A stretch of DNA of 64,000 bases from Kocuria sp. (GTDB taxonomy: Bacteria > Actinomycetota > Actinomycetes > Actinomycetales > Micrococcaceae), in the NCBI RefSeq assembly GCF_030538595.1, contig NZ_JAUNTS010000003.1, positions 198,171 to 262,170 on the forward strand. Direction: 5' to 3'. Below are positions 31,859 through 50,098 of this stretch, in pieces. How positions within the stretch are numbered: position 1 is the stretch's first letter; each line of letters opens with the position of its first letter. The notes beneath the pieces are model-generated. The model worked only from the letters and a program-made list of their open reading frames with translations. It made no database searches and was not told the DNA's origin. The position numbers were made by a program, and so were the translations under genes.

Positions 31859-31866
31859 TCCCAGCA

Positions 31867-31905
31867 CAACGCCCGCCCCATGCGACCAAGCGGGGGCGGG
31901 CGTTG
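31867..31905 (+). terminator. Terminator after the 31583 gene
   Basis: A 13-bp GC stem (31867-31879 with 31893-31905) and a 13-nt loop, 8 bp after the stop codon. Confidence 0.8.
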
Positions 31906-31949
31906 CCGTATCCCCACACGGGTGGGGACCAGACCGAAAGGAAATCGGT

Positions 31950-32829: not shown

Positions 32830-32830
32830 G

Positions 32831-33514: not shown

Positions 33515-33523
33515 GGGGTTCTC

Positions 33524-34216: not shown

Positions 34217-34230
34217 AGTCAGGACGCCTT

Positions 34231-35739: not shown

Positions 35740-35752
35740 GGTGTGGGGGCTC

Positions 35753-37045
35753 CTATGCGGGTAGTTGGTAGTCGTTCCAGGCGCCGGGGGTGGAGTTCCA
35801 CGGGGTGCGTACCTGGTCCCAGGTGTAGGCCGGGATCGTGGGCCGCTCGGAGTAGAGCACGCCCATCACGGATGACACGGAGTGCAAGGCCAGTTCGATT
35901 TCCCAGGTGTCTTTATCCATGCGCTCAGTGATGCCCTGGGCCGTGTAGGCACCTTGGATCGCGGCGGGCCAGTCCGCGCCGATCAGCACGGGCTCCCCCA
36001 CCTCCAGTTTCAGCAGCCACATGGCTATACGCCGGTCATAGGGGACGGTGGAGGTCAGCAGCCGGATCAGGTCAAACCGCACCGATTGCAGGCGGGTGAC
36101 GGGCACGTTGTACCGCTGGTTGAGCGCGTTCATGTAGTACCGGTAGTGCTCATAGGGTGATTCGGTTTGCGCGACGATGTTGGACCAGTCCACAAGCTCC
36201 GGTTCAGCTAGTGATGCGGGGTTGGCTAGGGGGAATGGCCAATCCTGGGTGTAGGGGGCACCGGAGGACACCACACGGGTGATGGACAACCTGCGGTTGG
36301 CGGCCTCAATGGGCTGGGACCAGCGCGCCGGGGCGATACCCTCGGCGCGCAGCACCGGCAGGGTCGTGGCCACGGTGCTAAACAGCTCGAACCGGCGGCG
36401 GCCGATCGGCAGTATCCAGAGGTCGCCTTGCCGCATTTCGCGGATTTGGGTTCCGGTGCCGGCCCCGTAGGTGTCGATGACCTCAGAGGCTTTGGTCCAC
36501 TCGGTGGTGGCTGCGATGGTGTCCGGGCCACCGATACCCACGGTGCCGATTTTCGATCCCAGATCGGTGTGCTTCAACGCACGTTTCAGCAAGTCGTTGA
36601 CAGTTTCGCCTTTGGTGGGCTGCACCTTGCGGGAGGCGCCCATGACCAGGGATGACCAGTGAGCCGCCTTAAACGTCGTCGTGAAGCCCTTAGATGCGAG
36701 CCCGCCTCGGTCTTCTACCTCGGTGGCACCTACCCGGCCAATGAACCGGTCACGGATTTGCGTGCCGCTGGTGGCCTTGGTGGGGTCCAGTGCGGCGATT
36801 CGGTTGGCGAACGTTGTTTGCAACCGAAAATAAGCTTGGGTGTTGTTGCCGGTGTAGAGCGCGCCGGGGGCCACAACCTCCAGGGTGGAGGGATGCAGGC
36901 CACCGTCTGGGGAGTCCGATCCCCGGTGCAGCGTGATAGACGTGACGGCGCTGTCCGAGAGCGTGCCGAGCTGCTCGGTGTTCACGGCGACCATGCCCAC
37001 ACCGGTGTGTAGGCGCCGGTAGAGCCGTCCAGGGCGGCGCGTCAT
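35753..37045 (-). CDS. Minor tail (baseplate hub-like) protein
   Basis: A 430-residue protein encoded directly after the tape measure (4-bp overlap), the position of distal-tail and hub proteins. Recognisable only by context and by mixed alpha/beta segments such as ITLHRGSDSPDGGLHPSTLE, FIGRVGATEVEDRGG and VNDLLKRALKHTD. The last resembles siphophage minor tail proteins that place a ring at the tail tip. No enzymatic motif is seen. Confidence 0.7.
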   Translation of the reverse strand: MTRRPGRLYRRLHTGVGMVAVNTEQLGTLSDSAVTSITLHRGSDSPDGGLHPSTLEVVAPGALYTGNNTQAYFRLQTTFANRIAALDPTKATSGTQIRDRFIGRVGATEVEDRGGLASKGFTTTFKAAHWSSLVMGASRKVQPTKGETVNDLLKRALKHTDLGSKIGTVGIGGPDTIAATTEWTKASEVIDTYGAGTGTQIREMRQGDLWILPIGRRRFELFSTVATTLPVLRAEGIAPARWSQPIEAANRRLSITRVVSSGAPYTQDWPFPLANPASLAEPELVDWSNIVAQTESPYEHYRYYMNALNQRYNVPVTRLQSVRFDLIRLLTSTVPYDRRIAMWLLKLEVGEPVLIGADWPAAIQGAYTAQGITERMDKDTWEIELALHSVSSVMGVLYSERPTIPAYTWDQVRTPWNSTPGAWNDYQLPA

Positions 37046-39690
37046 GGTGTGGTCACCTGCCAGCCCATCAGGTTGGCTTCCTCACGCAGCACACGCCGGA
37101 TTTCGCGTGCGACGCCTACGGTGTCGGTGACCAGCCCGTTAAAGTTCACCATGACTTCCATGCGACGCCCGCCGCTGCCGGTGGCGGTGCTGCCGGGGCC
37201 TGTGCGGGGGAGGCGGGGGCTGAGTTCCACGGGTTGGCGGTTGAAGTCCGCGACGGGGGTGCGGGCGGCCGAGACCATGCGGCGGGCGGCGGAGGTCACA
37301 GCGCTGCGAGAGGCCAGAATGCCGCTGGCCAGGCCCGCGCCGATCTGCTTGCCCACCTCATCACGGAAAACACGTGACGGCGAGTGGATACCCAGCAACG
37401 ACTTGGCCCCTTGTACGGCGTCGCCCACAACCCCTTTGGCCTTGTCAACCAGGGCACCGGCCATGGAGGCCACACCGTCGATCATGCCTTGGATCATCTG
37501 CACGCCCATGGTGCGCAGTTGGCCGGGGAGGCCCGCCAGTACGCCCATGACGCGGCCGGGGAGGCCCTGCATCCAAGACACCACGGACGCCACACCGGAG
37601 GTCACGGCCTGCACGATGTTGTTCCAGGCGTTCTGTATCCCGGAGGTGACGGCGTTCCACGCGGAGGTGACCAGGCCCAGGATCAGGGTGCCCGCTGCGG
37701 CCAGGATGCCGAACACCAACGCCAACGCGCCTTGGATGATGCCGGTGATGATCTGCCACGCGCCGGAGACGATCATGCCCAGCCCGTCCCACACCATTTG
37801 CCAGTTGCCTGTGAGTAGGCCAGAGAACACGGTGACGACGCCTTGGATCATGGTCAGCGCGCCGGTGATGATCTGCACGATGAAGCCAAACACCGTGATC
37901 ACGGTATCCATCAGGGTGGAAATCGTGGGGATCAGCACATCCAGCAGCGTGGAAATCAGCGGGATGAACGCTTGGGCCAGGGCCACGATGGTGGCGGCCA
38001 GCTGCACGGCGACGGGGATCAGCTGCGGCAGTAGCTCGGTGGCCAGGCGGGTGAAAATCGGTGCCAGTCCGGTCACCAGTTGCTCGACCAGGGGTGTGAG
38101 GGCTGTGACCACCTCGGTCCAGGCCGGTGCCAGGGTTTGGACCAGCTGCACCAGCACGGGCAGCGCTGCGGTGACCAGGGACATGATGACCGGCAGCAGG
38201 CCCTCCAGCAGCGTGCCCGCTACTCCCAGCAGGGCCTCCCCGACCGGGGCCAGGGCGGTGAGGATGGAGAGGAATGCGGCCGAGAGCTGCGGCAGTAGGC
38301 CGGTGATGAACGTTGTCAGTGGGGGCAGGATCACGGCCAGGGCTTGCGAGAGGCCCGCGCCCAGGGCTGTGACTAGCGGGTCCAGGGCTGTGGCCACGGC
38401 GCCGATGATGGGGACCAGGGCGCCCAGGATTTGCCCGACCAGCGGCAGCACGGTCGCGGCCACCGTCCCGAACAACGCGAACACGCTGTTCGCGGCTTCT
38501 CCCAGGCCGGAGAGGTGGGGGACTAGGCCCTGCACGCCGGTCAGGATGCCAGCGAAGGCTTGTTGGAGGCCGGGGCCGACTTGGGAGAGTGCTGCGCCCA
38601 GGGTGGACAGCAGCACGGAGGCGGCCATGCCCGCCATGGTCAGGGCCGCGTTGAGCGCCGGTGCCAGAGCCACGAAAGCATCCCCCAGCGCTGACACGCC
38701 GGGGCCGAGAGCGGAGATCGCGGCGTAGGCACCGGCAAACACCGTGGTGAGCGCGCCTTGGAACACCGGCCCGGCCGTGGCTTGCCGGACGCGGGCCAGC
38801 CCATCGGCCAGTGCGCCCAGGGAAGCGCCACCGGCGGCGGATGCTGCGCGCGCCAGGTTCGCCAGGATGCCACCGGTAGCGCCCAGAACACGGCCAAGGT
38901 CGCGGGTCGCCGTGATGGCGTCGTTGATCCAGCGGTGGAGAGAGCCGTCACCGGCAACGCGCATGGTCCAGGCGTTGAAGTCTCGGCCAAGGTTGGTGAA
39001 CCAGGTGCCCAGCGCCGGGAGGTATGAGGCCCCGGCTGTGAACAGGGTCATGAGCGCGGCGGTGAACCAGCCCGCGCCTTGTGCGGCGTTGAGTGAGCCT
39101 TGTGCGGTGTAGTCCAGGATCGCGCCGAGCTGTGCCAGTGATGTGGCGCTGCCGAGTACGGAGGCGATAGACCCGGCCATGACGCCCATGGCGGATGCGA
39201 CCTTGGGCAGGCCGGCCGAGAGTACCGGGAGTACCCCGGTGGCCAGGTCTCGGATCGGCTGCGCGGCCTGTTTCCAGAACGCGGGGGAGAATCCTTCCCG
39301 TAGGGCTGCGAATTGCGGGGCCAGGTCTCCCAGGTATTGGCCCGCGTCTTTCAGGGAGAGCGCCATCACGCCCAGGGCTATGCCCATGCCCAGCAGCGCG
39401 CCGGGGGCGGCTAGGGCTAGGGGCATGATGGAGGCCAGAGACGCGCCAATTGCGAGCAGCTGACCGGAGGCGGCTAGGGCTGCGGCGGTCAGGGTGGCGA
39501 TGGTGACCGCGATAGCGGCGATTTTCGGGGCGTTGGTGAGCAGCCCCACGGTGGCCGCGCGGCCCGCTTTCGCGGCGCGTTGCAGCCCGACCGCTGCGGC
39601 GGCGGTTTGGGTGAGCGCCCGGACACCGCCGCGTGAGTTGCCGGTGATCCTCACGGAGAGGATTGCTGTTTTCCCAGCCATGAGGGTCAC
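37042..39690 (-). CDS. Tape measure protein
   Basis: An 882-residue protein, the longest in the prophage, rich in Ala, Gly, Leu and Val with many hydrophobic helices (ALAASGQLLAIGASLASIMP, LDVLIPTISTLMDTVITVFG). A C-terminal stretch is typical of actinophage tape measures (GAKSLLGIHSPSRVFRDEVG). It sets tail length and probably enters the membrane during injection. A GTG at 39690 or ATG at 39681 may be the start. It follows the frameshifted tail chaperone gene, as usual. Confidence 0.93.
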   Translation of the reverse strand: MTLMAGKTAILSVRITGNSRGGVRALTQTAAAAVGLQRAAKAGRAATVGLLTNAPKIAAIAVTIATLTAAALAASGQLLAIGASLASIMPLALAAPGALLGMGIALGVMALSLKDAGQYLGDLAPQFAALREGFSPAFWKQAAQPIRDLATGVLPVLSAGLPKVASAMGVMAGSIASVLGSATSLAQLGAILDYTAQGSLNAAQGAGWFTAALMTLFTAGASYLPALGTWFTNLGRDFNAWTMRVAGDGSLHRWINDAITATRDLGRVLGATGGILANLARAASAAGGASLGALADGLARVRQATAGPVFQGALTTVFAGAYAAISALGPGVSALGDAFVALAPALNAALTMAGMAASVLLSTLGAALSQVGPGLQQAFAGILTGVQGLVPHLSGLGEAANSVFALFGTVAATVLPLVGQILGALVPIIGAVATALDPLVTALGAGLSQALAVILPPLTTFITGLLPQLSAAFLSILTALAPVGEALLGVAGTLLEGLLPVIMSLVTAALPVLVQLVQTLAPAWTEVVTALTPLVEQLVTGLAPIFTRLATELLPQLIPVAVQLAATIVALAQAFIPLISTLLDVLIPTISTLMDTVITVFGFIVQIITGALTMIQGVVTVFSGLLTGNWQMVWDGLGMIVSGAWQIITGIIQGALALVFGILAAAGTLILGLVTSAWNAVTSGIQNAWNNIVQAVTSGVASVVSWMQGLPGRVMGVLAGLPGQLRTMGVQMIQGMIDGVASMAGALVDKAKGVVGDAVQGAKSLLGIHSPSRVFRDEVGKQIGAGLASGILASRSAVTSAARRMVSAARTPVADFNRQPVELSPRLPRTGPGSTATGSGGRRMEVMVNFNGLVTDTVGVAREIRRVLREEANLMGWQVTTP

Positions 39691-39697
39691 CGGCCTT

Positions 39698-39853
39698 TCA
39701 CGTGTCGTTGTTTTCTTGCATGATTTCCAGTGCGGTGGCGATGACGCCGGGGGTGGAGTGTTCTTCTGTGACCCAGGTGGATGGCGGGATGCCGGACTCC
39801 AGGGCCAGGACCACTAGGGCGTGACTCAGTGATCCTGCCGGGTAGGGTCCGCC
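39698..39853 (-). CDS. Tail assembly chaperone, frameshift extension (no own start)
   Basis: A second frame, -1 relative to the upstream chaperone gene, open from 39853 to the TGA at 39698. It encodes SHALVVLALESGIPPSTWV followed by EEHSTPGVIATALEIMQ and a short polar end. It has no credible start codon or ribosome binding site and resembles the downstream half of siphophage G/GT chaperones. The slip must happen between the -1 stop at 39854-39856 and the zero-frame stop at 39826-39828. No textbook slippery heptamer is seen; the CCCTACCC stretch in that interval is the best candidate. Confidence 0.7.
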   Translation of the reverse strand, partial: GGPYPAGSLSHALVVLALESGIPPSTWVTEEHSTPGVIATALEIMQENNDT

Positions 39854-40137
39854 TCAGTCGCGGTGGGCTCCGGGTCCGGGTCGGATTCCGTCACGGCCTG
39901 CGCCTGCGCAATGAAATCGTCGAAGGTTTCGGAGTAGTCGCCGGTGCGGGTCAGTGAGTGCCAGGTGCAGAAAAACAAGAACCGCAGCGGGTTGTCCTCC
40001 AGCGTGCCCCAGCCCAGGACGCGGGCCTTCTGCTCGAACATGAGTTGGTCGATGGGCAGCAGTTTCACGTTGTGGTGTTCGATTTCTGCGCCGTCTTTGT
40101 GCAGCAGGACGTTGGTGGTGGGGATGGTGATTGCCAT
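39826..40137 (-). CDS. Tail assembly chaperone
   Basis: A 103-residue protein between the tail tube and tape measure genes. An N-terminal beta part (AITIPTTNVLLHKDGAEIEH) and helices (LPIDQLMFEQKARVLG, ETFDDFIAQAQAV) are followed by an acidic, Pro-rich C-terminal end (ESDPDPEPTATEADP) just before its stop, the site of the presumed frameshift. Such chaperones coat the tape measure during tail assembly. Confidence 0.78.
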   Translation of the reverse strand: MAITIPTTNVLLHKDGAEIEHHNVKLLPIDQLMFEQKARVLGWGTLEDNPLRFLFFCTWHSLTRTGDYSETFDDFIAQAQAVTESDPDPEPTATEADPTRQDH

Positions 40138-40138
40138 G

Positions 40139-40513
40139 TCATTTGCCTTTCACGGACAGCACCGCCGCGTTGAGTTCGCGGGTGTAGGCGCTGATCCAGA
40201 TGGGTTCGGAGGTTTGCGCGGCTCGGGTTAGCCACGGGTTGGCGTGGATGCCGGGGCGGGGGTCGCCCCAGTGCACGCGGCCGGGGTAGGGCAGGCCACG
40301 TGAGCCGACCTTGATCGTCCCGGCGCGGGCGGTGGCGGACACGCGTGTGGTGGCCGCAGCCGCGCCGGTGAGTTTGGGGGCGGTGGCCATGGCGTAGGGC
40401 ATCACGTACTGGGCTGCGTGCCGGTGGGCTTCCCTGATGTCGTCCAGGTCGGCGCCAGCGCGGCGGGCCGTGGTGATAAAACGGTTCAGGCCCTCGATCT
40501 GCACCCCCGCCAT
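40139..40513 (-). CDS. HK97 gp10-like tail/neck protein
   Basis: A 124-residue protein with LNRFITTARRAGADLDDIRE, AQYVMPYAMATAPKLTGAAA, TIKVGSRGLPYPGRVHWG and HANPWLTRAAQ, the pattern of HK97-gp10-type tail-completion proteins. It lies between tail tube and chaperone genes, slightly downstream of its usual place before the tube gene. Confidence 0.68.
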   Translation of the reverse strand: MAGVQIEGLNRFITTARRAGADLDDIREAHRHAAQYVMPYAMATAPKLTGAAAATTRVSATARAGTIKVGSRGLPYPGRVHWGDPRPGIHANPWLTRAAQTSEPIWISAYTRELNAAVLSVKGK

Positions 40514-40518
40514 GGCGG

Positions 40519-40947
40519 TTACCCCCCAGAGGGTGCGGTGTAGGTGTCGCTGATCGTGGGGTTACCCACCAGCGGAAACTCGAACTCGGTGCTGGCTTTG
40601 GTTTTCACGTCGCCGCCGATTTTCACGGGGCGGACGGTCAGCGTGCCTTTGGCCTGCACCTTCCCGGCCTGGGACGGCACGAACGTGAACGGCAGTTGCT
40701 TGCCTTTGTTGGTGTTGCACCACACGCTCAGGTCGCCGGTGGCGAAGGACTGCACGAACTCGCCGCTCAGGGTCCACTTCTCGGTTTCGTCTTGTTCCTC
40801 GGTGCCGTCCAGGTAGGGCAGCGCGTCGCCCTCATCAATTTCCGGGGTGAGTTCCACTTTGGTGGTGCGTCCCGCGAATTGCTGGAGGGTGCCGGTGGCG
40901 CCGATTTCCAGGATGCCGGGGCCGAGTTTGTTGGTTGTGCCTGCCAT
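40519..40947 (-). CDS. Major tail (tube) protein
   Basis: A 142-residue beta-rich protein (GPGILEIGATGTLQQFAGR, EKWTLSGEFVQSFATGDLSV, GTLTVRPVKIGGDV, TEFEFPLVGNP) with the size and position of siphophage tail tube proteins. AGGAGAACG precedes its ATG, fitting high expression. Confidence 0.82.
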   Translation of the reverse strand: MAGTTNKLGPGILEIGATGTLQQFAGRTTKVELTPEIDEGDALPYLDGTEEQDETEKWTLSGEFVQSFATGDLSVWCNTNKGKQLPFTFVPSQAGKVQAKGTLTVRPVKIGGDVKTKASTEFEFPLVGNPTISDTYTAPSGG

Positions 40948-40957
40948 GATCGTTCTC

Positions 40958-41323
40958 CTAGTCGTGATGGTGGTGGGTGGTGGATGTCAGGGACAGTGCT
41001 GGCCATGCCCGGCCTTGTGGGGGCTGGAAATTGGCGGGCTCGGCCCGGTCTACGTCCAGGGGGAGGCGTAGGGCCTCCCCGATGTCGTCCAGCTGCGCCC
41101 AGGCGTCCAGCAGGGACGCCTCCCCGGCGATGACGATGACGGTCCACGTCGCCGTGGTGTCGTTGTAGGTCTCATGCGCGATGGTGGGCGGTTGGATGAG
41201 CACCACGGGGGAGCCCTGCCCCACGGCGGCGTTGGCCTGATCGGCGTCCACGGTCACCAGCACGGCATCCGAGAGATGCGCCTGTGCTATGGCCACCAGG
41301 TCACGGGCAGATTGCAGCGTCAT
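40958..41323 (-). CDS. Tail terminator/minor head-tail protein
   Basis: A 121-residue protein. The ATG at 41323 overlaps the upstream stop (TGATG) with AGGAGG 9 bp before it; the frame is open further upstream but that part is only the shadow of the neighbour. Segments such as ARDLVAIAQAHLSDAVLVTV, SPVVLIQPPTIAHETYND and LLDAWAQLDDIGEAL fit tail-terminator-like proteins, which cap the tail tube. The C-terminus is a natural HHHH run followed by Asp. Confidence 0.65.
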   Translation of the reverse strand: MTLQSARDLVAIAQAHLSDAVLVTVDADQANAAVGQGSPVVLIQPPTIAHETYNDTTATWTVIVIAGEASLLDAWAQLDDIGEALRLPLDVDRAEPANFQPPQGRAWPALSLTSTTHHHHD

Positions 41324-41661
41324 CACGCGAAACCTCCTGGTAGGTAGGGGGCCAGCATCGGGCGCACGGCCCGCAGCGGGTCGTTGGCCACGTGCACCAG
41401 CTCCGGGCCGGACTCGGACCCTGCCCCAAAGTCCACGACACCGGCGCGGGCCTGCTTGCGCCAAAACAGGTCAGCGGCGGTCTCCACGACGGCGCGGGTG
41501 ACGATGGGGTCAGGGACCGGGCGGCCCTGGATGTGGCGGGCCACCAGGTCCATGGCTTCCGCCGTGCAGTCAGCCACGAAACCGTTGGTCTCGGACGTGT
41601 TGACGTAGGCGGCGACCTTAGCCGTGTAGTGGTCGGCGTTGTGGGGCAGGGTGGTGGCCAT
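41323..41661 (-). CDS. Head-tail connector protein
   Basis: A 112-residue, mostly helical protein (KVAAYVNTSETNGFVADCTA, MDLVARHIQGRPVPD, VTRAVVETAADLFWRKQARA), a pattern common in gp6-like DNA-packaging adaptors. It directly follows the capsid gene, as expected for the connector. Confidence 0.72.
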   Translation of the reverse strand: MATTLPHNADHYTAKVAAYVNTSETNGFVADCTAEAMDLVARHIQGRPVPDPIVTRAVVETAADLFWRKQARAGVVDFGAGSESGPELVHVANDPLRAVRPMLAPYLPGGFA

Positions 41662-41666
41662 GGGGA

Positions 41667-43346
41667 TCAGGCGGATGCCGGGGCGCCGAACTTGATTGGC
41701 AGCAGCGCGTCCGGGTGCGGCGTCAGCATGGCGGCGTACCCGTAGGCGGCGATGTCGTGGGACAGGTTCAGGGGCTGGTTGGCCTGGAGGCGGAACGGGG
41801 CGCCGGGGGATTCCCGGAACTCGAAGGCCATGGGGTCCAGGAACAACGCCCGCCCGGTGGTGCCGGAGAGCAGCCGGACCGGGACGTTGAGCAGGTTGCC
41901 CTCGATCTGGGGCAGGTTCAGGGTGCCGACGACGTTGGCGGTGCCGGTGCCCTGGTGTACGGAGAGCAGCGGGCGCCCATCGGTCCCGGCCTCGGAGGCC
42001 AGCGCCTTGAACACGTCGCCGGACAGGGCCAGCTCGGTGTAGCTGTACACGCTGCCCTCGTAGTGCTCGGCGGCGTCCACAATCGCGGTGATCCAGTCGA
42101 ACGCGCCGGGGTCAGCGGGCATGGTCAGCACCTTGTCCCCACCGGCTGCAAGAATCCGGTCGAGCTCGGCCACCACGTGGGCGGCCATAGCCTGATCCGT
42201 TTCCTCGGCGTAGGCGTACACCATGTCAGCGAAAATCGCTGCAATCTCATCGGTAGGCATACGGTCAATGACCTGTTGGGACAGGGTTTCGGCGCCGCCG
42301 AAGGTCCGCACGGGCGCGGTCTTGGTGGTCACGGACCGGCCGGAGCCCTTGACCAGCGGGTCAAGTTCCTTCTTCTGCTCGGCCACACGCGCGTGGGACT
42401 CTCGGCGGATGTAGGACACGCTCATGCCGTCATCGGGCAGCGGCTTGGTGGTGAACCGGTTGATCCACTTGCGGCGGGCGGCGACCTTCTTGGTCAGATC
42501 ACCAATGAAGCCCGGTGCTTGTGAGAGGTGGTCTAGCGGGATGTCACCGGTCACCACGTTACGGTACAGGGCGGTGGCCACGGCCTTACGTTCGGCGTCG
42601 GTGCGGTCGGAGACCAGGGCCTTCAGGAAGTCACCGGCGGAACGGAACTCGGTGGCGGCGGAGAGGTCCGGGCCGGTGGGGGTGCCGGTGGAGGCCGCGC
42701 CGAGCTGCGCGCGGCGGATGTCGTCGGACAGGTCAGCGCGCAGCGACTCGGCGAAGGTGTCCAGGTCGGTGGAGCGGATCAGATCGGCGGGCAGCTCAAC
42801 CTTGGGGGTGTCAGGCATGGGGTTCTCCTTGTGTGCGTGTTCGGCTGCGCGAACGGATGTGATGGTGGCTGTTTCGTAGGCGGGGAAGGGCACCAGGCTG
42901 TATTCCCGGACCCTGACCTTGGTGTGAACGATCAGGGGGGTGTTGTGGTCGTCGTCGTGTTCTTCTCGCCATTCCAGGGGCTCGAAGCCGATGGACAGGG
43001 AACGGATCACGCCGTCACGGGCCAGGGTCAGGGCCTCGTCCGCTGTGGGAACCTCGGAGAGTTTCAGCGTGACTTCCCGGCCGGTGTCGGTCTCGGTGGC
43101 GGCGGTCAGTAGCCCGATGGGGTCACGGTGGCGGTAGTAGGCCAGCGCGTCGGCGTCGTCGTCACAGGCACCGGGCTCGAACCGTTCCCGGAACCATGGG
43201 GTCACTAGTTCCTCGCCGTAGGGCACGCCGATGCCGGTCACGGTGCGGGTGTCGGTGTCGGCGGTAGCGGCGCGCACGCGCACGGCGGTGAGATCGCGGC
43301 GGGCTAGGTCTTGGCCTCGGGTCAGGTCGTTGAGTGTCAGGGTCAC
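41667..43346 (-). CDS. Fused HK97-type prohead protease and major capsid protein
   Basis: A 559-residue fusion. Residues 1 to about 170 are a prohead protease (VTGIGVPYGEELVTPWF, YYRHRDPIGLL, VIRSLSIGFEPLEW, VREYSLVPFPAYETATI), where RHR and the SLSIGF serine fit the His-Ser centre. Residues about 177-559 are the capsid subunit with a helical delta-like segment (STDLDTFAESLRADL) and the HK97 fold (KWINRFTTKPLPDDG, LTMPADPGAFDWI, LNVPVRLLSGTTGRALFL). An internal ATG at 42818 has an ideal AAGGAG site, so free capsid protein could also be made. Confidence 0.93.
   Translation of the reverse strand: MTLTLNDLTRGQDLARRDLTAVRVRAATADTDTRTVTGIGVPYGEELVTPWFRERFEPGACDDDADALAYYRHRDPIGLLTAATETDTGREVTLKLSEVPTADEALTLARDGVIRSLSIGFEPLEWREEHDDDHNTPLIVHTKVRVREYSLVPFPAYETATITSVRAAEHAHKENPMPDTPKVELPADLIRSTDLDTFAESLRADLSDDIRRAQLGAASTGTPTGPDLSAATEFRSAGDFLKALVSDRTDAERKAVATALYRNVVTGDIPLDHLSQAPGFIGDLTKKVAARRKWINRFTTKPLPDDGMSVSYIRRESHARVAEQKKELDPLVKGSGRSVTTKTAPVRTFGGAETLSQQVIDRMPTDEIAAIFADMVYAYAEETDQAMAAHVVAELDRILAAGGDKVLTMPADPGAFDWITAIVDAAEHYEGSVYSYTELALSGDVFKALASEAGTDGRPLLSVHQGTGTANVVGTLNLPQIEGNLLNVPVRLLSGTTGRALFLDPMAFEFRESPGAPFRLQANQPLNLSHDIAAYGYAAMLTPHPDALLPIKFGAPASA
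42816..42830 (-). promoter_or_regulatory. Internal ribosome binding site and start for the capsid half
   Basis: Minus strand AAGGAG, 6 bp, ATG, in frame with the fusion at codon 177, exactly at the protease-capsid junction (start of MPDTPKVELP). It would give a separate 383-residue capsid protein in excess over the fusion. Confidence 0.75.
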
Positions 43347-44581
43347 AGTGCTGTGTCCTTACGGGTGCGTGATGACTGGTTGGCGGTGGTGATCCGGTCG
43401 CGCTGCGCCTCGGTGAGCGGTGGCAGGTCTTCATGGGCGCGGGCTTCATCGGGGTCAAGCCACCCGGCGCGGATGCCGATTTCGTGGGCCTGGTAGCGGG
43501 TCAGCGTGTCCGAGCGCAGCAGGGCGTCCAGGTTGAACCGCACGGTCTGACCAGCAGGGGCGAGCTTGGTCAGGGTTTCCTCGATCTTGCGCAGATAGGC
43601 AATGAGGGTGAACCTCACGAACGCCAACCATTCCTGTTCCACGTTGGAGTAGGTGAGACTGTTGCCGTCCAGGCTGACTAGCATCAACGATGACGGGACG
43701 CCGAACAGGCGGGCCACGTCGGTCACCGTGAATTTGCGGACTTCCAGCCATTGCGCATCTTTGGGGTTGAGGAACAGGGGCGTGTAGGACAGGCCCTTTC
43801 CCAGCACGCGGATACCGGCCGGGTTGGAGTTGTCCCGGTCGCGGAACTGCCCGGTGTCGCGGTCGTAGTGGTTCCAGTCGTCACGCCATTGCTGCGCGTC
43901 AGCGGCGGTGAGGGGCTGGTCAGATTTCAGGATCGCGTTGGGGTGTCCGGCGCCGTTGAACCAGTTACCGGCGTATTCCCGCAGGTCAGTGGCGAATCCG
44001 AGTTCTGTGCGGGCGGCTTGGATGGGTCCGAAGCCGCGTAGCGTGTTGACGCCGCGCATCAGGGTTTGGTGGTCGAAGTCCTCGGCGGAGAACTTTCGGC
44101 CGTCGTGGTGGTAGGTGATGACGCGGGTGCGGTCATCACGGGAGACCTGCACCATGGTCGGGTCCACTATGCGGAGGTCCACGATTTCGTTGCCAACGCG
44201 GTGGCGGTAGATGAACAGCTCCCCGGTGGTCATCAGGGACATGACCGCTTGCCCGATGAAGTCGGATCGGTCCATCTCCAGGGAGGGGCGGCGGATCAGC
44301 CGGGGCACGGCCTCACCGGTGAGCTGCACGCCTTGGCGCTGCACTACCAGTGGGAGCTGGAGCGCTGCGGTTTGCATGACCTGCACGGCGCGAAAAACGG
44401 GGATCAGGCCCAGGGGGTTGCGGTCCCCGGCTGCGCGGGCGGGTGCGGGGGACCGGGTGAGATACACCGGGGTTGCGCGTGAGGCCCCATCGGGGGAGGG
44501 CTGCGCGGGCAGCTCAGCACGGGTAGCGGCTACGGGCTGCGCCTCGTAGCTCCCATCGGGCTGTTTCCGGTAGATCGTCAC
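43343..44581 (-). CDS. HK97-type portal protein
   Basis: A 412-residue portal. Motifs include NPLGLIPVFRAVQVMQTAAL, RPSLEMDRSDFIGQAVMSLM, GELFIYRHR, PLFLNPKDAQWLEVRKFT, VARLFGVPSSL and NSLTYSNVEQEWLAFVRFTL. It forms the dodecameric DNA gate of the capsid. It overlaps the capsid-fusion gene by 4 bp and lies just after the terminase gene. Confidence 0.93.
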   Translation of the reverse strand: MTIYRKQPDGSYEAQPVAATRAELPAQPSPDGASRATPVYLTRSPAPARAAGDRNPLGLIPVFRAVQVMQTAALQLPLVVQRQGVQLTGEAVPRLIRRPSLEMDRSDFIGQAVMSLMTTGELFIYRHRVGNEIVDLRIVDPTMVQVSRDDRTRVITYHHDGRKFSAEDFDHQTLMRGVNTLRGFGPIQAARTELGFATDLREYAGNWFNGAGHPNAILKSDQPLTAADAQQWRDDWNHYDRDTGQFRDRDNSNPAGIRVLGKGLSYTPLFLNPKDAQWLEVRKFTVTDVARLFGVPSSLMLVSLDGNSLTYSNVEQEWLAFVRFTLIAYLRKIEETLTKLAPAGQTVRFNLDALLRSDTLTRYQAHEIGIRAGWLDPDEARAHEDLPPLTEAQRDRITTANQSSRTRKDTAL

Positions 44582-44665
44582 AGCACAGATGTGACACCGT
44601 GCCCGGCTGGTTTGTCACAGGTGACGGGGCGCGGCGGGGCCGCCAGGGGACGCGTGGGGCGGGGG

Positions 44666-46105
44666 TCATGCGAACAGTTGGAGGCCGTAGGACTCGGGGG
44701 CGTGGTCGTGGGCGTAGGCTCCGACCGCTGCGGCTATGAGGTTCGGGATCGGCCGGGATGAGTGGTCACGGGAGAGGCGGGCCACGCCGTTGGTGGTGCG
44801 GACCTGCGCGGCGGCGATTTCGTCGCGGAAGGCGTCCACGGCTTCCCCGGTTTCGGTGGTCACGGGGACGTGGCGGATGGTCTGGTCATCACGTGCGGCC
44901 GAGATGAGGCCCTCGGATGCCTGCCCGAACTCTGCCATGGTCAGCCGCCGCACGGTGTGGCCACGGTCCTCCAGGTCGGTGGCGTGGCGGGCCACGGGTC
45001 CAGCGCCGTCACAGACCAGCTCGACCCCCCAGGCGGTGGCGAGTTCGGAGGCGAAGGGCACCAGCCAGGCTGTGCCGGGGGCTGAGTGCACGGTGCGGAT
45101 GACCTGGTGACCGGTGTCGTTGCGCCACGCGGCGACGACGGCGGCTGCGGCGTTGTCTGGGGCGGCCTCGAAGGCGAGTGTGACCTCGGAGGTGTCAGCC
45201 GGTGGTTCCTCCCACGGGGATGCCAGCGCGTCCCAGTCGTCCAGGTCGATCAGCGTGGTCTCAGCGAGCACCAGCCGGTTGGCGTAGGCGCGGATGAACT
45301 CGGCTTTGGGGAGGCGGGTTTCACGCTGGATGTCTTCCTCGGCGATGGTGTTGCCCAGGGCGGGGTGATAGCGCCACCAGGTGGCGGGGTCGTACACGTC
45401 AGCCCCATCAGGTGCCGAGTACTCGATGACGCACATGGTGGGGTCATCGGCCGCTGCGGCCAGCTTGTCGTTCATGAACGTGCTGTCTGCGGTGCCTTTG
45501 GTGCTGATCCACCACAGCTGTGAGCGTGAGCCCAGTGTGATCTGACCGGGGGACGCGGCCCCCTCCAACGCGGTCCCAAGGTCGGTGTCGTACTTCCAAA
45601 ACTCGTCAAACGTGACCAGCCAGGGGGTTTCGCCGTGTAGCGCGGACTTGGTGGGTGCGAAGTGCAGCAGGGAGGCGCCGTTACCGGGGACCAGCAGCCC
45701 GGAGCCTCCAGCGGCGCGCACGGGCTTGAACAGGTACCGGGCGGGGGAAGCGACCACCAGGTCAATGAGGGCGCCCATGCGTTTGCGGGCGTCCTTCCCG
45801 GTCTGCGCGGTGAAGAACGCGGATGACCGGGGGCGGGTCATCACGCGGTGGCACTGGACAGGCCCTACCAGCGTGGTCTTGCCGGACTGCCGGGGCACGG
45901 TGATGATGACCTCACGGTAGCGGTAGCGGCGCTGCCCGGAGGCGTCTAGCCGGTACTCGGTGGCGACGTCCACGGCCTTGCGCTGCCAGGGCATCAGCTC
46001 CACGCCCATCAGCCCGGCCACACGCGCGATTTCCCCGCCCTCGGTCAGCCAAGACGGATCGCGGGCGGGGTGGTGGGTGGCTGGTGGCAGGTGGGTGAAG
46101 GCCAT
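44666..46105 (-). CDS. terL: Terminase large subunit
   Basis: A 479-residue packaging motor. The ATPase part has MPWQRKAVDVATEYRLDA, the Walker A-like VPRQSGKTTLVG and the Walker B-like WLVTFDEFW. The nuclease part shows EVTLAFEAAPDNAAAAVVAA, VELVCDGAGPVA and the C-terminal Asp-containing segments. It cuts and pumps phage DNA into the prohead through the portal encoded next to it. Confidence 0.93.
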   Translation of the reverse strand: MAFTHLPPATHHPARDPSWLTEGGEIARVAGLMGVELMPWQRKAVDVATEYRLDASGQRRYRYREVIITVPRQSGKTTLVGPVQCHRVMTRPRSSAFFTAQTGKDARKRMGALIDLVVASPARYLFKPVRAAGGSGLLVPGNGASLLHFAPTKSALHGETPWLVTFDEFWKYDTDLGTALEGAASPGQITLGSRSQLWWISTKGTADSTFMNDKLAAAADDPTMCVIEYSAPDGADVYDPATWWRYHPALGNTIAEEDIQRETRLPKAEFIRAYANRLVLAETTLIDLDDWDALASPWEEPPADTSEVTLAFEAAPDNAAAAVVAAWRNDTGHQVIRTVHSAPGTAWLVPFASELATAWGVELVCDGAGPVARHATDLEDRGHTVRRLTMAEFGQASEGLISAARDDQTIRHVPVTTETGEAVDAFRDEIAAAQVRTTNGVARLSRDHSSRPIPNLIAAAVGAYAHDHAPESYGLQLFA

Positions 46106-46109
46106 GCGG

Positions 46110-46517
46110 TCAGCTGATTTCGCCCTGCACGGCCGCTAGCGCACGGTCCAAATCGTCGGTGGCTACCTGGTCCACCTGCGGCAGGTTCTCCAGGATCGCG
46201 TTCAGTGCGGTAATGAGCTGCGCTTTCCCGTAAGCCTTGCCGCTGGTGAGGTTTTCCAGGTCGATTTCCTGCGCTGTGACAATGGCCAGGGCCACCACGC
46301 CGTTGTGGTGCGGGTGCAGCACGTCGGCCTCCTGGAGCGCTGCGACTTGCTGGCGTACACCGGCCTCGACGGGGCCGGGCTGACCGGATCGTGTGGGCCG
46401 TGGCGGGGATACCGGGAAATAAGCTTGGCCGTGACGGTCCTCGGAAATCATGGCGTCTGATCCGGTACGATTCGGCGCGTTTTCCTGGGGTGCTGTGGGG
46501 GGTTTTTCCTGGCTCAT
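46110..46517 (-). CDS. Terminase small subunit-like protein
   Basis: About 135 residues when started at the ATG 46517 (no strong ribosome binding site; ATG 46451 is an alternative). The C-terminal half is helical (RQQVAALQEADVLHPHHNGVV, ALIVTAQEIDL-like, AYGKAQLITALNAILENL; read in pieces) and recalls P27-type small terminases. It lies 4 bp upstream of terL, the usual place of the DNA-recognition subunit. Confidence 0.65.
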   Translation of the reverse strand: MSQEKPPTAPQENAPNRTGSDAMISEDRHGQAYFPVSPPRPTRSGQPGPVEAGVRQQVAALQEADVLHPHHNGVVALAIVTAQEIDLENLTSGKAYGKAQLITALNAILENLPQVDQVATDDLDRALAAVQGEIS

Positions 46518-46548
46518 TTTCGTTGTTTTTCTGTGTTTAGATTTTTTG

Positions 46549-46863
46549 TTAGTGGTCTGGTGAGTGAATGGACACGGGGCGCGGGGTGGCGGTGGCCCCC
46601 GCACCACGGAAAAACGATGCACCGTGCACAACTTTGCTTGTCACATCACGATTACCACGCGAGTAGTTACAGGTGGCGTGCGCTGGCCCGAGATTCCACG
46701 TGTCATGTGTTCCTCCTTTGCTTTGTGCTTGCTTGTGCTCAACAGTTGCATCACTCAACTCTGTGATCTTTAACCCACAGATACAACACACATAATCATC
46801 ACGCACAAGCAGCGCTAACAAGATGGAACGACGACGACGATAAGGCAACTGAGACCAACGCAC
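46549..46863 (-). CDS. HNH endonuclease
   Basis: About 104 residues from the GTG at 46863; the open frame runs further upstream through the neighbouring gene. YVCCICGLKITELSDATVEH, GGTHDTWNLGPAHATCNYSR carry the HNH core (His-Asn-His equivalents) and a CxxC plus C zinc site. HNH proteins beside the terminase genes are common in HK97-type phages and assist cutting of the packaging end. Confidence 0.82.
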   Translation of the reverse strand: MRWSQLPYRRRRSILLALLVRDDYVCCICGLKITELSDATVEHKQAQSKGGTHDTWNLGPAHATCNYSRGNRDVTSKVVHGASFFRGAGATATPRPVSIHSPDH

Positions 46864-46873
46864 GCGAACAATC

Positions 46874-47101
46874 TCAGTCTTTCGTGCTGGTCTTCTTACC
46901 AGCGTCAAGCCACGCCTGAACGTCACGGGGCTGGTAGCGGACCAGGCGGGAGCGACCCAGCGTGATGAACGCCGGGCCGTCACCGGACTGCCGCCACCGC
47001 TTTACGATGTCGGGGTGGACACCACACAGGGCTGCCACATCGGGGGTGGTCATCAGCCGGGCACGGGATGGGACAACGGGGGTGGGCTGCGGGGTGGTCA
47101 T
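46874..47101 (-). CDS. Helix-turn-helix protein, excisionase/MerR-like
   Basis: A 75-residue DNA-binding protein with LMTTPDVAALCGVHPDIVKR, WRQSGDGPAFITLG, RLVRYQPRDVQAWLD, the compact winged-helix form of phage Xis-like and AlpA-like regulators. Its start overlaps the stop of the upstream gene. Possible regulator of the late genes that begin immediately downstream. Confidence 0.7.
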   Translation of the reverse strand: MTTPQPTPVVPSRARLMTTPDVAALCGVHPDIVKRWRQSGDGPAFITLGRSRLVRYQPRDVQAWLDAGKKTSTKD

Positions 47102-47565
47102 CAGGCACCAACCCGGTGAGCGTCGGCCAGTACGGACTGCCAGACGTGTCTCGCCATGCGGATGGACTGGGGCGGCTTATGGTCGGCGGGCAGCAGGTCG
47201 GCCGCCATGGCCCACGCCACCGCGTCACCGACAGCACAGGCCAGCGCGTTGCGCTTGTGCCCAGCCAGCGTGTCATCCAAGCCAAGGTCAGTGGTCTCCA
47301 TCAGGTGGCTAGTGATCGCCTCGATAGCGGACAGCAGGCCCGTGCAGGCTGACACGCGCCCGGAGTCGAACAGTAGCCGGTAGTATTGCCGATCCTGCGG
47401 GGTGGGGGTGTGCAGCTCCGGGATGTCGTAGGCGTCCGCTATGGCCTCCAGCGCGCGATGGCCCATGTCTTTATCAGCGAAGGCTTGCAGGACGTACAGG
47501 CCACGGGTCACGGACTGCACGACAGGCGGCACGGTGGGGTGGTTCATGGTGATGGTGACGTGCAC
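47101..47565 (-). CDS. Phage early-region protein of unknown function
   Basis: A 154-residue helical protein (VQSVTRGLYVLQAFADKDMG, RVSACTGLLSAIEAITSHLM, GDAVAWAMAADLLPADHKPP). No domain is recognised. It overlaps the next gene by one base and has a weak ribosome binding site (GGAGATAACCC). Part of the tightly packed leftward early operon. Confidence 0.6.
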   Translation of the reverse strand: MHVTITMNHPTVPPVVQSVTRGLYVLQAFADKDMGHRALEAIADAYDIPELHTPTPQDRQYYRLLFDSGRVSACTGLLSAIEAITSHLMETTDLGLDDTLAGHKRNALACAVGDAVAWAMAADLLPADHKPPQSIRMARHVWQSVLADAHRVGA

Positions 47566-47568
47566 GGG

Positions 47569-47754
47569 TTATCTCCTGGTGAGTTGGGGTAGTTCGTTGT
47601 GGTCGGTCCAGGCCGTCACAGCCTTGTGGACCTCGCTGACGTGCAAGGTCTTGACGAAGCAGCGGGTGCCGTCGCGGAAGAAATGCACGGTGACGCATGA
47701 GGGGCGGGCGGATGCGACCAACCGCCAGGTGCGGGACAGCTCAGGGTGTGTCAT
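47569..47754 (-). CDS. Small phage protein of unknown function
   Basis: A 61-residue basic protein (MTHPELSRTWRLVASARPSC, FFRDGTRCFVKTLHVSEVHK). No domain is recognised. Its ATG overlaps the stop of the upstream gene (ATGA), which supports that it is translated. Confidence 0.55.
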   Translation of the reverse strand: MTHPELSRTWRLVASARPSCVTVHFFRDGTRCFVKTLHVSEVHKAVTAWTDHNELPQLTRR

Positions 47755-47918
47755 GGCGTGGGGGCCTGGTCGATGTGGCGGCCGGTGACGATGTAGTCCG
47801 CTAGGCGGATCACCAACGCCTCGGTAGCGTCCAGGTCCGGGCGCTGCGCGGGCGGCAGCAGGGACGTGACACAGGTAGTCGCCATGGCCACCGCGTCAGA
47901 GCGCTCTTGCGGGCTCAC
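47751..47918 (-). CDS. Small phage protein of unknown function
   Basis: About 55 residues from the GTG at 47918 (MSPQERSDAVAMATTCVTSL, ATEALVIRLADYIVTGRHID). The start is set by GGAGG 7 bp upstream and by the GTGA overlap with the preceding stop; the frame is open further upstream only as a shadow. Helical, function unknown. Confidence 0.55.
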   Translation of the reverse strand: MSPQERSDAVAMATTCVTSLLPPAQRPDLDATEALVIRLADYIVTGRHIDQAPTP

Positions 47919-48214
47919 AGGTCGCCCTCCTTGGTGGTCATCAGGCCCATGTTGTACATGCCGGGGGGTGTCTCCACGCCCGCGAGCTTGCACAGGTGGT
48001 CAGTGACGTGGCTGTTGAGGTCGGCCAGCACACTGAGCAGGTCCTCACGGGTCAGGGTCGCGTTAGGGTCTGGTTGTTCCTTCTCAATGAAGGCGGTGGC
48101 GGATTGGATCGTTTCCACGACACCGGCTAGGGCCATGGCAGCCCCGAACTTCTCCGGTCCGAGCCGGTCACGGCTAATCGTGACCGGGGTTACGCCGTCA
48201 GGGATGTTAGTCAC
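47915..48214 (-). CDS. Phage early-region protein of unknown function
   Basis: A 99-residue acidic helical protein (PVTISRDRLGPEKFGAAMAL, TLTREDLLSVLADLNSHVTD). No recognised domain. It overlaps both neighbours by 4 bp, so the whole block is translationally chained. Confidence 0.55.
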   Translation of the reverse strand: MTNIPDGVTPVTISRDRLGPEKFGAAMALAGVVETIQSATAFIEKEQPDPNATLTREDLLSVLADLNSHVTDHLCKLAGVETPPGMYNMGLMTTKEGDL

Positions 48215-48537
48215 AGCAATACTCCTTGGTTGGGGTCGGGTTCGTTGCAGGTGAAGGATTGTTGGCCGCGTGTGGTCCTGCGGCGCACGTGGTCATGGCC
48301 AGGACGGGCACAGGGGATGAAATAGGGGTCAGCGCCAGCGGACGCGCAGACCAGGCACAGGCGTTCGGTGCGGTGGCGGCGGTTAACCGCGCAGTGCCAA
48401 CACAGATCAGCACGGGCAAACTCGGTGGCGGCGGGGGTTGCGTGTCGGTCGTACGACCGGGCGGCCTCCCGCTTCACCTGTTCCCGCTGAGCTTCTTTCG
48501 TTGACCATCGTTGGCGGGCGCGGTCTTGGGCTGTCAT
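48211..48537 (-). CDS. Putative zinc-binding phage protein
   Basis: A 108-residue protein with a basic helical N-terminal third (RQRWSTKEAQREQVKREAAR) and a Cys/His-rich part: LCWHCAVNRRHRTERLCLVC then CARPGHDHVRRR and a final CNEP. The CxxC...CxxC spacing suggests a zinc ribbon that may bind nucleic acid or protein. AAGGAG lies 11 bp before the ATG. It is the first gene of the leftward block after a 495-bp non-coding stretch. Confidence 0.6.
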   Translation of the reverse strand: MTAQDRARQRWSTKEAQREQVKREAARSYDRHATPAATEFARADLCWHCAVNRRHRTERLCLVCASAGADPYFIPCARPGHDHVRRRTTRGQQSFTCNEPDPNQGVLL

Positions 48538-49032
48538 GGCCTGTGTTCTCCTTTCATCAGTGCCGGGGTTGGCGTGCGAGTCGGGTTGGCGTGCACCGGG
48601 CTACGGTGTGGGATCACGTGGGATTGGAGCCCCTGCGGGGCCTGTCCGGGAGCGGCCCCAACCTCCAGAAATTTCCCGGGATTTGTCGCCAGAATCCCCG
48701 CCTGGGCATGACTTAGGCCCGACCGGGTTACCGGGCCGGGTTAAATCACGCTCACCACTCCCATGGCCGTGGGTGCGGTGATCCGCTTATCCCCCCCTGC
48801 GGGGCCGTTCTGTTTGGTACAGGGCCGGTCTGGTCGATGTTTTGCGTCCCCCGCCCGCGCTGCGCTTCCAGGGACGTGCCCACATGAGTCCCCCGGAGCT
48901 ACCGGGGCCGTGAGCCGTGCTGTGTGTGGTGGCTTCTGAGCCCTCCCTTACGTGCTGTGTGTGGTGGCATAAACCGCTAGTGCCCTTGCAGCCCCTCCCG
49001 GCGTGATTTGGACGGGAGAGGCAGCAAAGGCA
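48538..49032. other. Non-coding prophage region
   Basis: No supported gene in about 440 bp. It contains GC-rich inverted repeats (GGCCCG and CGGGCC around 48717-48738), an 18-bp direct repeat (48916-48933 and 48951-48968) and the terminator of the upstream gene. It is the likely site of the promoter for the 48537 operon and possibly of a replication or regulatory site. Confidence 0.6.
48916..48968. repeat. 18-bp direct repeat pair
   Basis: CGTGCTGTGTGTGGTGGC occurs exactly at 48916-48933 and 48951-48968, a 35-bp period (about 3.3 helical turns). The spacing places both copies on nearly the same face of the helix, which fits a protein-binding pair such as a regulator or replication-initiator site. 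Confidence 0.7.
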
Positions 49033-49036
49033 CTAG
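48977..49036 (-). terminator. Terminator overlapping the stop of the 49033 gene
   Basis: 24-nt arms (48977-49000 and 49013-49036) pair with three mismatches around a 12-nt loop. It would end the short leftward transcript that starts next to the repressor. Confidence 0.75.
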
Positions 49037-49290
49037 GTGATGTTGAGGAAATTGCCGAGCTGGAAGAAACGGCGGGTGTCTGTGGCGGTGGCGCGGCCCG
49101 CATGTAGTTGGCTCAGCAAGCCGTCGTATTGGTGGCGGGCGTGCGCGCGGTCTACATAGGCCATGGCCTCAGACCAGGTGATGAAGGTCTGGACTGGGGG
49201 CATGAAAGCGGGACGGTAGTCGCGGCGGTCCAGGACCAGCCACGTGCCGGGATTAACACCAGCAACGACAGCGAACGGGGCGCGGGTCAC
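49033..49290 (-). CDS. Immediate-early phage protein of unknown function
   Basis: An 85-residue protein (APFAVVAGVNPGTWLVLDRR, FMPPVQTFITWSEAMAYVDR). No domain is recognised. Its GTG overlaps the TGA of the small membrane gene (GTGA). It is third in the first leftward transcript. Confidence 0.55.
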   Translation of the reverse strand: MTRAPFAVVAGVNPGTWLVLDRRDYRPAFMPPVQTFITWSEAMAYVDRAHARHQYDGLLSQLHAGRATATDTRRFFQLGNFLNIT

Positions 49291-49433
49291 CGGGTCACAG
49301 CCTCAATGAACGCGGCACGGGCAGCGCGCAACGCCCGGTAGACAAACGGCGCGGCCGCCAGTGCGCCGGGGATGGTCCCCACAAACACCACAAACGCCAC
49401 GACGTAGACCAGGACCAGGGCGATGGGGCTCAC
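49287..49433 (-). CDS. 48-residue small membrane protein (short, easily missed)
   Basis: GTG at 49433 to TGA at 49287. It encodes one or two membrane helices (MSPIALVLVYVVAFVVFVG, then PGALAAAPFVYR) and an amphipathic basic tail (ALRAARAAFIEAVTR). It has 4-bp GTGA overlaps with both the upstream excisionase-like gene and the downstream 49290 gene, which strongly supports translation. Its position in the first leftward operon next to the repressor suggests an early or superinfection role. Confidence 0.65.
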   Translation of the reverse strand: MSPIALVLVYVVAFVVFVGTIPGALAAAPFVYRALRAARAAFIEAVTR

Positions 49434-49657
49434 AGGTCATCACCGGCCTTGTGGTCCGCATACGCCTGCCGAGTCTCAAACGCCTCAATGTCAGCCGGGC
49501 GCACGTAGTAGCGTCCCTGATAAGAGTCGGGGATGAACGTGGCGGGGATAGCGCCTGAGTGAATCAGGTTGCGCAAGTGCTGCGGGGAGCAGTTAAGCCG
49601 CCGGGCTGCGGCGCCGGTGGTCAAGAGCCCGGTAGAAGATTCAACCGATGTTTGCAT
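49430..49657 (-). CDS. Cro/excisionase-like helix-turn-helix protein
   Basis: A 75-residue DNA-binding protein (LTTGAAARRLNCSPQHLRNL, IHSGAIPATFIPDS, GRYYVRPADIEAFETRQAY) of the MerR/Xis type. It is the first gene leftward and divergent from the repressor, the place of Cro or Cro/Xis in integration-dependent-immunity phages. The ATG has no ribosome binding site, and TATTAA lies 8 bp upstream, so the message is probably leaderless. Confidence 0.75.
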   Translation of the reverse strand: MQTSVESSTGLLTTGAAARRLNCSPQHLRNLIHSGAIPATFIPDSYQGRYYVRPADIEAFETRQAYADHKAGDDL

Positions 49658-49760
49658 GAGCCCATTTAATACCCCATCGGGTGATTGTGCAACCAGTGGG
49701 CCTATATATGCGTTTCACTGGGAGCTTCCCGCAACGTTTGCATGTGCCTACACTGGGGGC
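49658..49760. promoter_or_regulatory. Divergent repressor/early promoter region with operator-like repeats
   Basis: Leftward: TTGCAC or GTTGCA (49687-49693), 15-16 bp and TATTAA (49671-49666), with ACCCCATCGGGT (49671-49682) in the spacer. Rightward: TACACT (49749-49754) 6 bp before the repressor ATG, giving a leaderless mRNA. CCAGTG (49693-49698), CACTGG (49716-49721) and CACTGG (49751-49756) are repeated half-sites; CACTGGGAGC and CACTGGGGGC are nearly the same 10-mer. These are likely repressor operators. Confidence 0.65.
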
Positions 49761-50087
49761 ATGACAACTCAACCAGACATTGGCACAGTGCCCGCCTGGA
49801 GCCTCCAGGACCGGCTGCGCAAAGCTCGGGAGCATGCCGGACTACAGCAAGGGGAGCTATCGGATGCCCTGGGCATCTCTCGGAATACGATCAGCCGCTA
49901 TGAGCTAGGGGCGCGGACCACACCAAGGCCGGTGGTCATGGCGTGGGCCATGGCCACCGGTGTGCCTTTTAGCTGGCTGGAGACGGGTCTGACCCCTTCG
50001 CCGCGTGGTGAAGGGGTCAGGTCGGAGCCTCCTGCCGGAATCGAACCGGCGACCTATTCTTTACGAGGGAATCGCTCTACCGACTGA
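49761..50087 (+). CDS. XRE-family immunity repressor whose gene crosses attR
   Basis: A 108-residue repressor with an XRE helix-turn-helix at about residues 15-70 (LQDRLRKAREHAGLQQGELS, ALGISRNTISRYELG) and a short tail. Codons from SEP onward lie in the 41-bp att core, and the last seven (RGNRSTD) come from the antisense of host tRNA-Thr. In the excised phage the frame runs through attP into the sequence right of attL and gives a tail LAQRSVTPVPAAA, stop at 30668-30670, about 114 residues. The mRNA is probably leaderless. This matches the repressor layout of integration-dependent immunity, with a degron-like AAA end only in the free phage. Confidence 0.88.
   Translation: MTTQPDIGTVPAWSLQDRLRKAREHAGLQQGELSDALGISRNTISRYELGARTTPRPVVMAWAMATGVPFSWLETGLTPSPRGEGVRSEPPAGIEPATYSLRGNRSTD
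49989..50020 (-). terminator. Phage-supplied terminator for tRNA-Thr, inside the repressor gene
   Basis: A perfect 11-bp stem (49989-49999 with 50010-50020), 5 bp beyond the 3' end of tRNA-Thr in the direction of tRNA transcription. It lies in the coding sequence of the repressor and replaces the host terminator now stranded at 30552-30585. Confidence 0.65.
50024..50064. other. attR: 41-bp core within tRNA-Thr
   Basis: Identical to 30589-30629. Right of it lies the 5' half of the tRNA gene (host), left of it the phage repressor gene. Confidence 0.95.
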
Positions 50088-50098
50088 GCTAAGGAGGC
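50026..50098 (-). tRNA. tRNA-Thr (anticodon CGU)
   Basis: A 73-nt cloverleaf on the minus strand: acceptor GCCTCCT/AGGAGGC, D-arm GCTCAGTCGGTAGAGC, anticodon loop CTCGTAA, T-arm GCCGGTTCGAATCCGGC, discriminator U, no encoded CCA. The anticodon stem ATTCC/AGAAT has a C-A mismatch next to the loop (31-39). The 3' half is the att core, so it may come from the phage. Confidence 0.95.

Follow-up and report, generated by a model that had tools for sequence, protein, structure and literature searches.

A 19.4-kb prophage at tRNA-Thr with its attachment site inside the repressor gene, a probable case of integration-dependent immunity

The prophage and its insertion site

The window, by which we mean the whole 64,000-nucleotide stretch of DNA analyzed, carries a prophage body of ~19.4 kb (30630..50023) between two copies of a 41-bp core, attL (30589..30629) and attR (50024..50064), which are identical at 41 of 41 bases by sequence comparison. 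The attR copy lies both in the repressor frame and in the 3' half of a host tRNA-Thr(CGT) gene on the minus strand (50024..50098). The core covers the 3' end of this tRNA; attB overlaps the gene, and the core of the inserted phage rebuilds its 3' part. Among the ORFs scanned, profile matches mark, all on the minus strand, a terminase (44666-46105), a portal (43343-44581), a protease-capsid (41667-43346), a major tail (40519-40947), a tape measure (37042-39690) and a tail protein (34231-35739). Beside attL is a tyrosine integrase of 273 residues (30682..31503, plus strand; Pfam, PHROG and alignment) ending in LELPAAA, and at attR is the prophage form of the repressor, an HTH protein of 108 residues (49761..50087, plus strand; HTH_3, E 1.3e-13; phrog_2328, E 8.1e-31). 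Divergent from the repressor is a gene for a small, Cro/excisionase-like HTH_17 protein (49430..49657, minus strand) with a weak match to the excisionase/regulator family phrog_66 (E 2.3e-6).

An uninterrupted counterpart of the site exists in the same genus. Among 25 same-genus tRNA-Thr loci, each with 1.5 kb of flank on either side, one (L095) has an intact tRNA flanked by homologues of both prophage neighbors, the left one matching the window gene at 29251-30312 at 66.6% over 314 residues and the right one the gene at 50209-51753 at 77.0% over 413 residues. The right-hand neighbor is present at 17 of the 25 loci, and at loci other than L095 either the flank is too short or the left homologue is absent. 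The uninterrupted tRNA-Thr between both neighbor homologues argues that the 19.4 kb are a genuine insertion.

The SAM-like N domain of the integrase (Pfam SAM_4) starts at residue 5, leaving no space for an arm-binding domain. The protein is 46.4% identical to the integrase of the M. abscessus phage phiGD21-1 and 45.1% identical to that of Brujita, and a profile search of genome contigs with the integrase alignment gave, among the matches listed, one Mycolicibacterium integrase at 42%, the remaining 79 listed being at 25-35% and mostly from other phyla. Its catalytic columns are invariant in a 12-sequence alignment. This bears on the possibility that the tagged repressor belongs to a defective prophage, any switch being a relic. 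Lysis genes were not identified among the prophage ORFs scanned, and the products of 32777-33265 and 35753-37045 have no match in Pfam or PHROG, as a decayed prophage might show; the intact catalytic columns, the identical att cores, and the open, ordered frames for terminase, portal, capsid, tail and tape measure speak against decay, and we regard a defective prophage as unlikely.

We also noticed short repeats around the regulatory genes. TTTGCAT/ATGCAAA occurs six times in the 64 kb, four times within the prophage, two of these at the ends of the gap between the repressor and the cro-like gene, where GTTTGCATG is found at both ends (49650-49658 and 49736-49744); further copies of TTTGCAT are at 30690, in the start of the integrase gene, and at 44371. 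The distribution is suggestive of candidate operators. A TACACT hexamer lies 6 bases upstream of the repressor ATG (49749-49761), so the repressor mRNA may be leaderless; by eye, a -10-like hexamer seemingly stands at a similar distance from the ATG in some relatives.

Two forms of the repressor and their tails

The earlier note had read the repressor frame as entering the core at attR and ending in antisense tRNA after 108 residues. Both the coordinates and the residues hold, and the last seven residues, RGNRSTD, and the stop codon are encoded by host tRNA DNA. When the phage side of attR, the core and the phage side of attL are rejoined in silico, the core falls within the repressor frame, which stays open through the severed 3' end of the gene (30630..30670, plus strand), and the resulting attP form has 114 residues, ending in LAQRSVTPVPAAA with its stop at 30668-30670, as the note had proposed. 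Insertion into tRNA-Thr(CGT) swaps the last 13 codons for 7 host codons and the host stop, the first differing codon straddling the core edge (CGA at attR, CTA at attP). In the attP form, 11 bases separate the repressor stop (30670) from the integrase ATG (30682), the two genes being adjacent on the plus strand. The attP-form repressor ends in VTPVPAAA, which by sequence is ssrA-like (--AA), and the PAAA terminus of the integrase, which the earlier note had left unremarked, would be a similar tag. The tmRNA tag of the host is ANSKRTDFALAA, ending in ALAA, and the host genome contains one clpX (637 bits) and two clpP genes above the cut-offs. From these sequences, the repressor tail is a probable destruction tag.

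To place the tail in its family, we surveyed 179 loci (18 phage records taken by name, the L009 locus described below, and 160 IMG/VR loci, the best 80 per search), in which profiles found 57 pairs of neighboring repressor and integrase genes with 41 distinct repressors, some of them close relatives. AA endings are found in 30 of the 41 repressors and 21 of the 41 integrases versus 32 of 2437 other ORFs at the same loci; with [AV]A endings the counts are 33/41, 29/41 and 45/2437, and with near-duplicates dropped, 25 of 33 repressors end in AA. The excess over other ORFs places the tail above chance. Exceptions are Barebow and Angel, which end in AS, UmaThurman, which ends in PA, and five of the 41 repressors outside AA, VA, AS and PA (VI, AK, VQ, NP and SD). 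These five weigh against a switch, as does Barebow, the closest named phage, whose repressor ends in RAS and integrase in IAS.

The arrangement recurs in related prophages. A search for both att copies covered 18 regions from 15 genomes and recovered both in two of them, which each rejoin in frame. One (G013; 18.7 kb) is at tRNA-Thr, with an attP tail ending in ALALVA and an integrase beside attL ending in SIAA. The other (G189; 17.6 kb) is at tRNA-Lys, with an attP tail ending in LTRAA and an integrase beside attL ending in AAAA, masked bases interrupting the sequence. As for the other 16 regions, ten lack a tRNA call at the repressor (a contig end in one case), one is cut by a contig edge on its phage side, three are bare tRNA sites, and two (G043 and G216) have the tRNA and repressor sequence, with the second core not found in the DNA fetched.

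The closest sequence found is L009 (IMG/VR contig 3300010371_000576), part of an uncultivated viral contig of 16.6 kb in attP form, with 55% identity in the repressor and 56% in the integrase. It has the same antisense-tRNA frame (EPPAGIEPATFSL) and a core peptide one residue off that of the window (ATFSL versus ATYSL). Its repressor ends in LEPIAA and its integrase in LELPAAA, both tails ending in AA as in the window.

These data can be set against the alternative that no switch exists, attP lying at the 3' end of the repressor gene by chance, with both forms stable and the tail incidental. The change is short, 114 to 108 residues, a net difference of just six, the tail starts in what appears to be diverged antisense tRNA (the tRNA and the attL side match at 91% over 55 nt), and it ends in AAA whereas the host tag ends in LAA. 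However, chance placement is at odds with the AA counts above, with the in-frame rejoining of ALVA and RAA tails at two different tRNAs in two further prophages, and with the degradation reported for the BPs repressor (PMC4557955), and we consider this alternative very improbable.

The switch itself is already published for Mycobacterium, Gordonia and Bifidobacterium. Integration-dependent immunity was described for BPs (PMC4557955), and the same switch is reported for Gordonia phages including those of the small cluster CW (PMC5559632), for M. abscessus prophages, some of whose repressors are without ssrA-like tags (PMC8092301), and for two Bifidobacterium prophages, described by rejoining the sequence in silico as here (PMC6109161). 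Arthrobacter phage Galaxy has a similar look but is reported to lack recognizable tags and an attP in the repressor gene (PMC5513430). The mycobacteriophages BPs, Brujita, Malithi and relatives (clusters G, I, N and P; PMC4557955, PMC9262239) are described with attP in the repressor gene, as here, and share with the window a repressor gene adjoining the integrase gene, a tRNA target, a host stop and a tag on both proteins. Unlike that group, the window has a 19.4-kb prophage in another host with an AAA tail, and 7 codons replace 13, while BPs is reported to lose 33 residues. In Bifidobacterium, Bb423phi2 and 689b-1 (PMC6109161) are small prophages in which rejoining in silico gives an ssrA-like tag; they differ in the host, in the tRNA-Met target and in a prophage form that misses 18 C-terminal residues.

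The earlier note had proposed that this prophage uses the same switch with a different repressor and tRNA. The first part stands as the best reading of the gene order, att sites, tails and homology; the second does not. The repressor is a homologue, because the PHROG 2328 profile covers its residues 1-106 and it is 40.0% identical to that of Angel, from the BPs group; among named phages it is closest to Curtobacterium phage Barebow (49.1%), followed by Malithi and Shipwreck (48.5%). We therefore rejected the idea of a different repressor. Nor is tRNA-Thr special, being a reported target of several Gordonia phages (PMC5559632) and of M. abscessus prophages (PMC9934374). Barebow, Rahul, Coeur, McGonagall and GMA5 are likewise small temperate phages (16-18 kb) in which the repressor gene adjoins the integrase gene. 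The structural gene order of Barebow (18.3 kb) is that of the window; Rahul (16.2 kb) follows a similar order, except that lysin A sits between portal and capsid. McGonagall and GMA5 target tRNA-Lys (PMC5559632), the window tRNA-Thr.

On one defining feature, the lack of a separate RDF, the pertinent observation is the weak phrog_66 match of the small HTH_17 protein. The other defining features given in the accessible parts of PMC9262239 and PMC9934374 are present wherever the sequence can speak to them, which, with the published precedents, points to a switch of an already known type. With good confidence, the locus is best explained as a small prophage of siphovirus type that has integration-dependent immunity; the gene order, the attP in the repressor gene, the tRNA target, the host stop, the Ala-rich tails of repressor and integrase and the homology to proven systems all fit it. 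The sequence observation of the earlier note is right, and its mechanism is probably right too, although the system is an established one and the repressor a homologue. Proteolysis of the ClpXP type would hold repressor and integrase low in the free phage, and lytic growth would follow by default; where the integrase nonetheless persisted at a level sufficient for recombination, the repressor would shed its tail, become stable and repress the divergent early promoter. If this is true, the prophage is a compact example, at 19.4 kb, of a switch in which recombination itself decides lysogeny.

A hairpin in the repressor linker

Just before the core, the repressor linker reads PSPRGEG in the window and APSPDGDGA in several relatives (McGonagall, GMA5 and Coeur), and the DNA encoding it is an inverted repeat. 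In the window this forms a hairpin with an 11-bp perfect stem and a 10-nt loop (49989..50020), 3 bases past the tRNA 3' end, which we propose as a replacement tRNA terminator. The hairpin native to the 3' flank of tRNA-Thr would be displaced to the host side of attL (30560..30577). When the protein is held fixed and synonymous codons are redrawn, the window hairpin exceeds the redraws with p 0.008 for the stem and 0.035 for the energy. It has no U-run on the tRNA strand, which counts against the terminator reading; in L009, a 12-bp hairpin is followed by TTTTCTATGC on that strand.

We applied the same redrawing to the family, scoring at p<=0.05. From 129 repressor-frame matches, 40 without a recognizable T-arm were excluded, and the rest reduced to 66 distinct and 55 non-redundant linkers. 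The linkers fold more stably than their redraws in 43 of 55 cases, versus 14 of 55 for a control 120 nt upstream (paired Wilcoxon p 1.5e-6), many of the members from which the hairpin idea arose recurring among these 55. In a sliding window, the count is 40/55 at the tRNA end, 3/55 at a shift of 24 nt and 6 to 16/55 farther off; some excess structure in control windows 120-144 nt upstream (16 and 13 of 55) counts against the reading. A perfect stem alone gives a weaker signal (17 of the 40 T-arm members reach a stem of at least 7), and the variety of pairs in ten hairpins is illustrative only, as these were picked for strong stems. A held-out set, drawn from genomes that share the order and class, comprised the 26 matches that scored 55 bits or more and brought a new locus; the window, G012 and a further seven matches (in G355, G586 and G567) were outside it. 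Its linkers reach p<=0.05 in 16 of 20 cases and the controls in 3 of 20, although the set overlaps earlier loci in short stretches (86 bases at most, largely tRNA), and one locus (L368) is 76% identical over 325 bases. Twenty of the 26 held-out repressor homologues end in antisense tRNA (11 Arg, 4 Asn, 4 Lys and 1 Thr), suggesting that the arrangement is common.

The hairpin could instead serve the repressor/integrase mRNA or integrase binding, since it lies within the repressor mRNA and beside the core. It is present in 39 of 49 homologues with a T-arm and also in 8 of 24 without a detected one, although two of the latter (L030 and L041, z -2.7 each) do sit on tRNA-Thr. Two observations argue the other way. 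In 24 of 25 same-genus genomes, the 55 bases beyond a bare tRNA-Thr gene contain a strong hairpin in the same place, and the native 14-bp arm in G083, GAAGCCCCGTCACC, is the McGonagall linker arm. Moreover, in the 51 of 55 linkers that could be anchored, A-ending codons, on the side giving U on the tRNA strand, are in excess at W+2 to W+5 (89/204 versus 37.4 expected) and less so at W+1 (10/51 versus 4.3), but not in the arm (the next two codons, 12/102 versus 12.5), though binomial p values for the excess are too small, the codons of related sequences not being independent. An mRNA or integrase role is, on balance, doubtful. Frames reading TGEAPSP.GDGA at bare tRNA-Thr genes (G083, G061 and G149) were considered as repressor remnants and set aside, native hairpins being likelier because 24 of 25 bare flanks have one.

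We take the family pattern to reflect selection on the tRNA strand for an intrinsic terminator; the U-rich stretch is a trend across the family, absent from the window copy. As a second layer to the switch, the linker beside the core would be a translated tRNA terminator hairpin, the inserted phage giving the host tRNA both its 3' end and a 3' hairpin that stops the tRNA transcript. We lean toward a model in which one DNA stretch carries three overlapping codes, namely the tRNA 3' end, the replacement terminator (hairpin and U-tract) and the C-terminal linker of the repressor, before a removable degron. In this model APSPDGDGA would be a translated terminator, and ribosomes on the repressor gene would mask the mRNA hairpin while the untranslated tRNA transcript stops. 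If true, it would explain why the linker is conserved beside different tRNAs. A repressor gene doubling as a replacement tRNA terminator may be new at the level of the family: such a role was not found in the literature searched on integration-dependent immunity, that on tRNA-integrating elements generally being lightly searched, and the accessible parts of PMC9262239, PMC6109161 and PMC8092301 mention neither a terminator nor a hairpin.

Further repressor-family frames

Several observations were made in passing at related loci. The repressor tail of Malithi (L015, 2501-2971) diverges mid-tail from that of its close relative Donovan and is without AA; its integrase retains SAA. In contig G355:C1, two repressors (589741-590121 and 631784-632095) have a common tRNA-Asn core. 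Of these, the right-hand repressor terminates within the tRNA, and the left one is full length, with a tail ending in PVAA and an integrase gene behind it; profile A2 found no second integrase in the 65 kb to the left. A tandem lysogen may have left this pair as a relic, the resident repressor having been re-tagged by an incoming phage.

Short members of the family also occur. In L425 (G586:C27:158500-164500), the attR repressor at a tRNA-Thr gene is preceded, 0.7 kb upstream, by a second frame of 86 residues without an att site. In L419 (G355:C1:585000-604999), where two tRNA-Asn core copies bound a 42-kb stretch, four more short frames of ~85-91 residues each stand in a row (590983-592117), directly 3' of the integrase gene that adjoins the left core. 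These four stop before the linker and so have neither att site nor tail, and it is possible that they form a cassette of stable repressors against other phages.
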